From Eudoraea chungangensis (GTDB lineage: Bacteria; Bacteroidota; Bacteroidia; Flavobacteriales; Flavobacteriaceae): 64,000 nucleotides of DNA. The DNA lies in NCBI RefSeq assembly GCF_029360665.1, contig NZ_JARDUB010000002.1:434001-498000 (forward strand). Reading direction: 5' to 3'. The position numbers were made by a program, and so were the translations under genes. The notes under the pieces were generated by a model. That model did no database searches. It saw only the letters and a program-made list of their open reading frames with translations, and had not been told where the DNA came from. Shown in pieces: positions 17,246-36,210 of this stretch; within the stretch, counting starts at the first letter, position 1; each line of letters begins with the position of its first letter.

Positions 17246-17319
17246 GGCCCCGTGGCGCAACTGAATAGCGCATCAGATTTCGGCTCTGAGGGTTGGGGGT
17301 TTGAATCCCTCCGGGGTCA
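17246..17319 (+). tRNA. tRNA-Arg (anticodon UCG)
   Basis: A full cloverleaf of 74 bases. The acceptor stem is 7 bp, the D stem GCGC/GCGC, the anticodon stem TCAGA/TCTGA and the T stem 5 bp. The anticodon loop TTTCGGC places TCG at positions 34-36 with G37. CCA is not encoded: the discriminator A is followed by CAC. The D loop has G18-A19 instead of G18-G19 and the T loop has T56 instead of C56. The usual G19-C56 tertiary pair is therefore replaced by A19-U56. The gene stands alone between YqeY and a terminator. Confidence 0.95.
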
Positions 17320-17349
17320 CACAGGAACCACAATGGAAGGTGGAATAGG

Positions 17350-17380
17350 AGCGAGTTTCAATGAAGAGACTCGCTTTTTT
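17350..17380 (+). terminator. intrinsic terminator after tRNA-Arg
   Basis: A stem AGCGAGT/ACTCGCT (17350-17356 with 17369-17375) is followed by a run of six T. It is 30 bases past the tRNA. Confidence 0.8.
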
Positions 17381-35879: not shown

Positions 35880-36149
35880 TTACTTTCTAATATTCAATTC
35901 TTTTATTAAGACACGATATTTTTCGATATCTTTTTTCTTTAAATAATCAAGTAAACTTCTTCTTTTACCAACTAATCTTACCAAAGATCTTTCAGTATTA
36001 TAGTCTTTTTGATTGTTTTTAAGATGTCCTGTTAAGTGGTTAATACGATGCGTAAATAGAGCAATTTGTCCTTCTGTAGACCCAGTATTGCCTTCCGAAC
36101 CGCCATGTTTCTTGAAGATTTCCTTCTTCACTTCTGTCGTTAAATACAT
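35880..36149 (-). CDS. rpsO: 30S ribosomal protein S15
   Basis: An 89-residue protein of the usual length for S15, a primary 16S rRNA-binding protein of the 30S platform. The conserved helices are visible: GSEGNTGSTEGQIALFTHRI, then INHLTGHLKNNQKDYNTER, then LVRLVGKRRSLLDYLK. It starts with an ATG about 54 bases from a putative -7 box. A strong terminator follows immediately, so most transcripts should end before pnp. Confidence 0.98.
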   Translation of the reverse strand: MYLTTEVKKEIFKKHGGSEGNTGSTEGQIALFTHRINHLTGHLKNNQKDYNTERSLVRLVGKRRSLLDYLKKKDIEKYRVLIKELNIRK

Positions 36150-36202
36150 TCCAATATTATTTTAAATGATTTTTATGTATCTGATTGATTTTCAATCGAG
36201 CG

Positions 36203-36210
36203 CAAAGATA
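36203..36210 (-). promoter_or_regulatory. putative -7 box for rpsO
   Basis: On the minus strand this is TATCTTTG, a match to TAnnTTTG, 53 bases before the rpsO start. Confidence 0.45.

Follow-up and report, generated by a model that had tools for sequence, protein, structure and literature searches.

A matched A19-U56 pair in place of G19-C56 in the elbow of a tRNA-Arg(UCG) gene of Eudoraea chungangensis, and its recurrence among related arginine tRNA genes

Background

The tertiary pair 19-56 of the tRNA elbow is given as a conserved G19-C56 pair in PMC4810234 and PMC7912444, and the consulted sections of these two sources mention no natural compensated variant. Its flat outer face is a stacking surface for the ribosome, RNase P, T-box RNAs and other partners, to several of which, including the ribosome and RNase P, the elbow presents it (PMC4810234, in part). 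In the consulted parts of the reviews G19-C56 is the rule, and the exceptions that they name lack the motif altogether. Among these departures are tRNA-Pyl and type II mitochondrial tRNAs, which give up the standard elbow according to the sections of PMC7609411 consulted. The closest laboratory counterpart is a pre-tRNA-Gly carrying the double change G19A/C56U (PMC5039416, in part), which was assayed with protein-only RNase P and not with the bacterial RNA-based RNase P.

Here we describe a tRNA-Arg(UCG) gene in a 64,000-nucleotide stretch of the E. chungangensis genome (hereafter, the window), which carries the same compensated pair as that laboratory-made molecule. Unlike tRNA-Pyl and the type II mitochondrial tRNAs, it keeps the elbow with another matched pair. 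With the canonical elbow it shares G18, U55, G57, A58, the R15-Y48 pair, the loop sizes and the Watson-Crick geometry of 19-56 and differs from it in having A19-U56, while some of its relatives have U19-A56. A likeness is offered by the Levitt pair 15-48, a tertiary pair that is likewise exchanged, being A-U in 56 and G-C in 2 of 58 aligned arginine tRNA genes. Variation at 15-48 is textbook matter, whereas variation at 19-56, to our knowledge, is not. Escherichia coli tRNA-Ala has G19-C56. A C19-G56 elbow pair is named in the A-site tRNA by PMC10944890, a label that, set against that tRNA, looks reversed. We found no description of natural compensated elbow pairs (A19-U56 or U19-A56) in the open-access listings and passages searched, subscription papers being mostly outside the scope of the search.

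Results and discussion

An intact tRNA-Arg(UCG) gene with A19-U56

A sequence-only reading of the window had described the gene as a tRNA-Arg(UCG) in which a Watson-Crick-compensated A19-U56 replaces G19-C56, and had proposed scoring it with a covariance model. ARAGORN calls a tRNA-Arg(tcg) at 17246-17320, and the Rfam tRNA model (RF00005), for which the gathering score is 29, rates 17246-17319 at 58.2 bits, with the stems paired and the cloverleaf complete. The end at 17319 in that reading is correct for position 73. The D loop, AACTGAATA, is read as A14 A15 C16 T17 G18 A19 A20 T20a A21, and the T loop, TTTGAAT, as T54 T55 T56 G57 A58 A59 T60. Since the D loop holds a single G, no renumbering can restore G18-G19, and the closing pair G53-C61 of the T loop fixes the position of U56. 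A gap-free alignment of 74 columns, comprising the window gene and 57 other Arg genes, confirms the register, so that a shift in loop numbering, which the sequence-only reading had named as a possible undoing of its claim, does not apply. Thus, the description is confirmed by the ARAGORN call, the Rfam score, the sequence and the alignment.

Table 1. Positions in the window of the tRNA-Arg(UCG) gene, its elbow and identity bases, and the hairpin downstream
Feature	Position in window	Strand	Basis
tRNA-Arg(UCG) gene, positions 1-73, without encoded CCA	17246..17319	+	ARAGORN; Rfam RF00005; genome tRNA set
A19, D-loop half of the elbow pair	17264	+	sequence; register by alignment
A20, main bacterial arginine identity nucleotide, retained	17265	+	sequence; role from PMC9976931 (in part)
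Anticodon UCG	17280..17282	+	ARAGORN; sequence
U56, T-loop half of the elbow pair	17302	+	sequence; register by alignment; pair counted
Hairpin and T run; probably the intrinsic terminator of a unit comprising this gene alone	17347..17378	+	fold -17.4 kcal/mol, z -5.29

The arginine identity of the gene is borne out by the anticodon, C35 and A20. The gene lacks G19-C56 (Table 1) and has all other canonical marks intact, namely U8, A14, A15-U48, G18, A20, U54, U55, G57, A58, A73 and full stems. The pair at 19-56 appears capable of Watson-Crick pairing, with G18, U55, R57 and A58 retained beside it. The presence of G18, U54, U55 and A58 sets the gene apart from elbow-less or reduced tRNAs, and it shows none of the broken stems, lost invariant bases or lack of conservation that mark tRNA pseudogenes. 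It is identical in eight of the nine congeneric genomes searched, the ninth (G008, 82% complete) giving no match.

A consensus terminator scan listed nothing, the hairpin of Table 1 included, possibly because its stem runs into the T run. A promoter scan returned a single site, which lies downstream of the tRNA gene and scores below the shuffled mean. Elsewhere in the window, an S15-Flavobacteria ribosomal protein leader is found on the minus strand (36147-36210, 71.8 bits).

The source genome (3.7 Mb, 17 contigs, 99.97% complete) yields 36 tRNA matches at E-values up to 0.001. Elbows other than G-C are present in two of the 36, the Arg(UCG) gene and the single Arg(ACG) gene (C3:388961), both with A19-U56, while Arg(UCU) and Arg(CCU) have G19-C56. 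Neither a second UCG gene nor any CCG gene is found among the 36 tRNAs; the second UCG copy with G19-C56 that the sequence-only reading had held out as contrary evidence is thus absent from this set. By standard wobble rules tRNA-Arg(UCG) reads CGG and CGA. With no other gene for UCG and none for CCG among those found, the CGG codons, which make up 31 of 716 Arg codons in 47 ORFs of the window that span 200 codons or more (some possibly spurious), would depend on the window tRNA.

Positions 19 and 56 covary as strongly as stem pairs

A comparison of Arg(ACG) and Arg(UCG) genes, of the kind that the sequence-only reading had suggested for Bacteroidota, bears out covariation at 19-56 at the strength of stem pairs. 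In 58 distinct Arg(ACG) and Arg(UCG) genes, fetched with no condition on 19 or 56 and in part by similarity to the window gene, only two of the 2701 column pairs, 5-68 and 29-41, exceed 19-56 in mutual information (1.32 bits for 19-56), and 49-65 comes after it. The pair 19-56 is matched in all 58 genes (35 A-U, 16 G-C and 7 U-A), a set that does not include the mismatched gene of G501 described below. The cloverleaf structure as a whole stands far above shuffled and slid controls in the same genes, and G18, A20, U54, U55, G57 and A58 are invariant. Given this covariation and the identity of the gene in eight of nine congeners, the elbow change is not a chance occurrence.

The changed pair is common in the class and switches repeatedly

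In a draw of 198 genomes across the phylum, an Arg tRNA with A19 and U56 occurs in 35, all of them among the 49 genomes of the window's class, which we take to be Bacteroidia, and in none of the 149 genomes of other classes. A pattern with 19 and 56 open, applied to 70 of those 149, matched 69, and every tRNA row is G19-C56, one row (G077:C23) having been judged not to be a tRNA. With 19 and 56 left open, a survey of the window's class lists 530 rows of Arg(ACG) and Arg(UCG) genes from 519 distinct places in 319 genomes, 16 further rows being dropped as non-tRNA; genomes with no match (for example, 17 of 296 in one survey set) may carry Arg tRNAs outside the pattern. In the window's class, 19-56 is matched in 529 of the 530 rows among the matches listed. 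The sole mismatch among them is A19-C56 in G501, the other sampled member of its genus (G517) having A-U. Counted as genome-by-type entries among the matches listed, the ACG genes comprise 213 A-U, 94 G-C, 7 U-A and 1 A-C, and the UCG genes 78 G-C, 71 A-U and 28 U-A. At least 11 families contain both G-C and non-G-C Arg(ACG) genes. In family f20, taken here to be Crocinitomicaceae, the G-C form is absent from the 69 genomes (of 70) with a match, which show only A-U, U-A and the mismatch of G501. Tandem Arg(ACG) genes, two or three copies within a few hundred bases and all A19-U56, are seen among the matches listed in G262, G295, G321, G347, G408 and G487. The sequence-only reading had called the change unusual; this holds with respect to the textbook pair and is not supported as a statement about this gene in particular, the change being widespread and recurrent in the class and also present in the Arg(ACG) gene of its own genome.

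Arg genes with U19-A56 are present in at least 118 stretches of titled genome contigs, and the titles of those listed name Flavobacteriia, Crocinitomicaceae, Cryomorphaceae, Bacteroidales and other Bacteroidota, two loci being titled just 'bacterium'. Three listed loci from metagenome bins are titled in other phyla (L150, L199 and L205; Candidatus Kuenenia, Planktophila and Actinomyces). Genes of family f20 have the very same tRNA sequences, and on that ground the bins are probably mislabelled.

On a gene tree of arginyl-tRNA synthetase (ArgRS) from 65 genomes, which were picked to include mixed-state families so that the density of switches is inflated, G-C versus other elbows needs 17 changes by parsimony, 10 of them forced by starred branches. 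The tree is of one gene, built by a quick method under a site-homogeneous model, and some families do not form clades on it. The elbow label is weakly clustered, shuffled labels needing 20.4 changes on average and 36 of 500 shuffles being as low as 17. Among the matches listed and with kinship ignored, the UCG gene departs from G-C in 94 of the 151 genomes in which the ACG gene does so too, as against 3 of the 19 in which the ACG gene is G-C; in those three the ACG gene is of another type with A37, and in one more genome both ACG elbow types occur. For correlated switching of ACG and UCG genes the tree offers only three independent pairs, too few for any power. Repeated switches that nearly always keep the match suggest that what the cell needs at 19-56 is a matched pair, rather than G-C in particular.

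Two apparent routes of change

The first route is paired substitution, which appears to be visible in the UCG genes of G091, G577 and G607. These retain the old D stem and the old T stem and differ at 19 and 56 alone (46 bases seen). The second is a mosaic like that left by gene conversion from the Arg(ACG) paralogue, and the window gene is an example of such a mosaic. Its D arm is identical to that of the Arg(ACG) gene in its own genome. Outside the D arm it matches the older Arg(UCG) type, in the anticodon arm, the variable loop and the T stem, with U56 as the one departure. The mosaic pattern is visible in the 58-gene alignment (L030, L027 and L053), and in the UCG genes of G010 and G020 the match to an ACG type extends to the T stem. 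In three genomes of the window's family (G010, G572 and G608), an A19-U56 Arg(UCG) gene stands beside an Arg(ACG) gene of a different type, which has G19-C56 with A37; copying from the resident ACG gene therefore does not cover all cases. The different-type gene in these three genomes looks like a replacement of the resident ACG gene.

A probable requirement for a pair of free identity

We consider it likely, with a probability of roughly 0.7, that the window gene encodes a functional tRNA, that a Watson-Crick elbow is required while G-C identity is not, and that the change arose either through substitution of both halves or through mosaic copying of the ACG paralogue. The tRNA-Arg(UCG) would be expressed and charged and would decode CGG and CGA. 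An A-U pair has the same outline as G-C, with one hydrogen bond fewer, and A19-U56 would accordingly hold the elbow and keep the planar outer face on which its partners stack. Selection in Arg(ACG) and Arg(UCG) genes of the class would act on Watson-Crick pairing at 19-56 and leave identity free among G-C, A-U and U-A. Both halves would change within a short evolutionary time, through two substitutions or through copying of an arm from Arg(ACG) into Arg(UCG).

The sequence-only reading had suggested that the change may affect how RNase P, the ribosome or other binders recognise the elbow. On the reading preferred here these partners would have to tolerate A19-U56, and repeated switching with pairing kept, as read from the genes, argues for such tolerance. 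The near-total retention of pairing together with free identity in the bacterial Arg genes suggests that what these partners need is geometry. The G19A/C56U pre-tRNA-Gly is cleaved by PRORP3 with k of 1.78 against 1.67 per min and KM of 7.7 against 4.8 nM for wild type (PMC5039416, in part). In the same source, C56U alone performs as well as the double change (k 1.81, KM 6.4 nM), and thus the PRORP3 assay, in the part consulted, indicates tolerance and not a need for pairing; C56U in chloroplast pre-tRNA-Phe gives 22% cleavage.

An account based on pairing alone predicts variation in all tRNAs, yet it is Arg(CGN) genes and a few Gly(UCC) genes that vary in the class, so some feature particular to these tRNAs is missing from it. 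Patterns that required changes at both 19 and 56 and accepted all anticodons (80 genomes of the class with a 9-base D loop, 99 with an 8-base D loop) return, besides Arg(ACG/UCG), no tRNA other than Gly(UCC) with A19-U56, in two copies each in G282 (family f64), G262 and G295 (both family f81), the remaining rows being read as chance matches. The consulted parts of PMC9976931 and PMC7912444 state that G19-C56 has a bearing on leucine identity in E. coli and C56 on U54 thiolation in Thermus, respectively; such roles may account for the lack of variation in other isoacceptors.

Viral tRNAs and the rival readings

Changed elbows also occur on viral contigs from IMG/VR, which we take to be phages. 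A scan for Arg tRNAs found A19-U56 in at least 120 stretches and U19-A56 in 11. From 131 viral loci selected in this way (L274-L393 and L460-L470), 1936 tRNAs were called and 335 set aside as poorly placed. Among 1456 well-placed tRNAs other than Arg(NCG), 1371 are G-C and 71 otherwise matched (56 A-U, 13 C-G and 2 U-A), the rest being 4 G-U wobbles, 9 mismatches and 1 that could not be placed. Phe(GAA) is the commonest of the non-G-C isoacceptors, with 23 of the 56 A-U pairs in Phe. Odd elbows from automatic placement, such as T-C in Met(CAT), vanish once the poorly placed tRNAs are excluded. With the viral C-G added to G-C, A-U and U-A of bacteria, all four Watson-Crick forms occur in nature. 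A control set of 36 viral loci, picked through a Phe tRNA pattern that left 19 and 56 unconstrained (312 tRNAs called, 43 set aside), has just 6 of 269 lacking C56 (3 A-U, 1 U-A and 2 G-U), and 3 more have C56 with no GG in the D loop. The elbow change is uncommon in viruses at large, and pairing is less strict there than in bacterial Arg genes; the mismatches and wobbles of viral tRNAs are a counterpoint to the reading preferred here. An annotated phage collection gave weak matches only to the window tRNA, in 22 records (17 Streptomyces phages, 3 Klebsiella phages and 2 unannotated metagenomic records).

It is unlikely, but conceivable, that 19-56 is a recurrently switching recognition patch in Arg(CGN) and some viral tRNAs, selected by an elbow-reading factor such as a nuclease, toxin or host factor, with geometry held by paired change. 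In the version that invokes conflict, which we consider rather unlikely, a nuclease, toxin or other elbow-reading factor targets G19-C56 of Arg(CGN) tRNAs, and hosts and phages escape it with the pair kept matched. We know of no elbow-reading factor of this kind. The repeated switching of the bacterial genes and the A-U, U-A and C-G elbows in several isoacceptors of viral contigs are in keeping with such a conflict, as is the proposal that phage tRNAs evade nucleases through changes in the anticodon loop (PMC10264068). However, the main text of that paper, in the part consulted, makes no mention of the D loop, T loop or elbow, and the rarity of the change in the viral sample unselected on 19-56 shows that it is not general in viruses.

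Relaxed constraint or decay, in which a little-used tRNA has a drifting elbow, is quite improbable. AGA and AGG do dominate the Arg codons (480 of 716 in the same 47 window ORFs), yet CGN codons still account for 236 of the 716. Decay also predicts mismatches, against a single mismatched row of 530 among the matches listed, and the invariance of six elbow-region bases in the 58 genes speaks against it as well.

Still less probable is co-adaptation with ArgRS, which reads A20 beside the elbow. The concentration of the variation in arginine tRNAs would fit, and D-loop A20 is the main bacterial arginine determinant (PMC9976931, in part). Against this, G19-C56 is retained in Arg(UCU) and Arg(CCU) of the source genome, which has one argS match. 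Among the aligned ArgRS proteins (66 genomes sought, 65 matched), no column in which one residue reaches 40% separates G-C genomes from the others, the largest frequency distance being 0.47, and in mixed families the most frequent differences fall on columns that are variable anyway. We thus find no ArgRS residue that tracks the elbow switch, either within mixed families or over all 65 proteins. An artefact (a pseudogene, sequencing error or wrong numbering), for which nothing but the rarity of the change speaks, is rejected as scarcely credible, the gene being conserved across the genus and the change found far beyond it under a numbering that cannot be shifted.

Conclusions

The natural pair-swapped tRNAs described here are ready-made molecules for testing whether partners of the elbow need G-C or any planar matched pair. 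Searches and models that demand G19-C56 would misjudge real tRNAs in this class of Bacteroidota and in some viruses.
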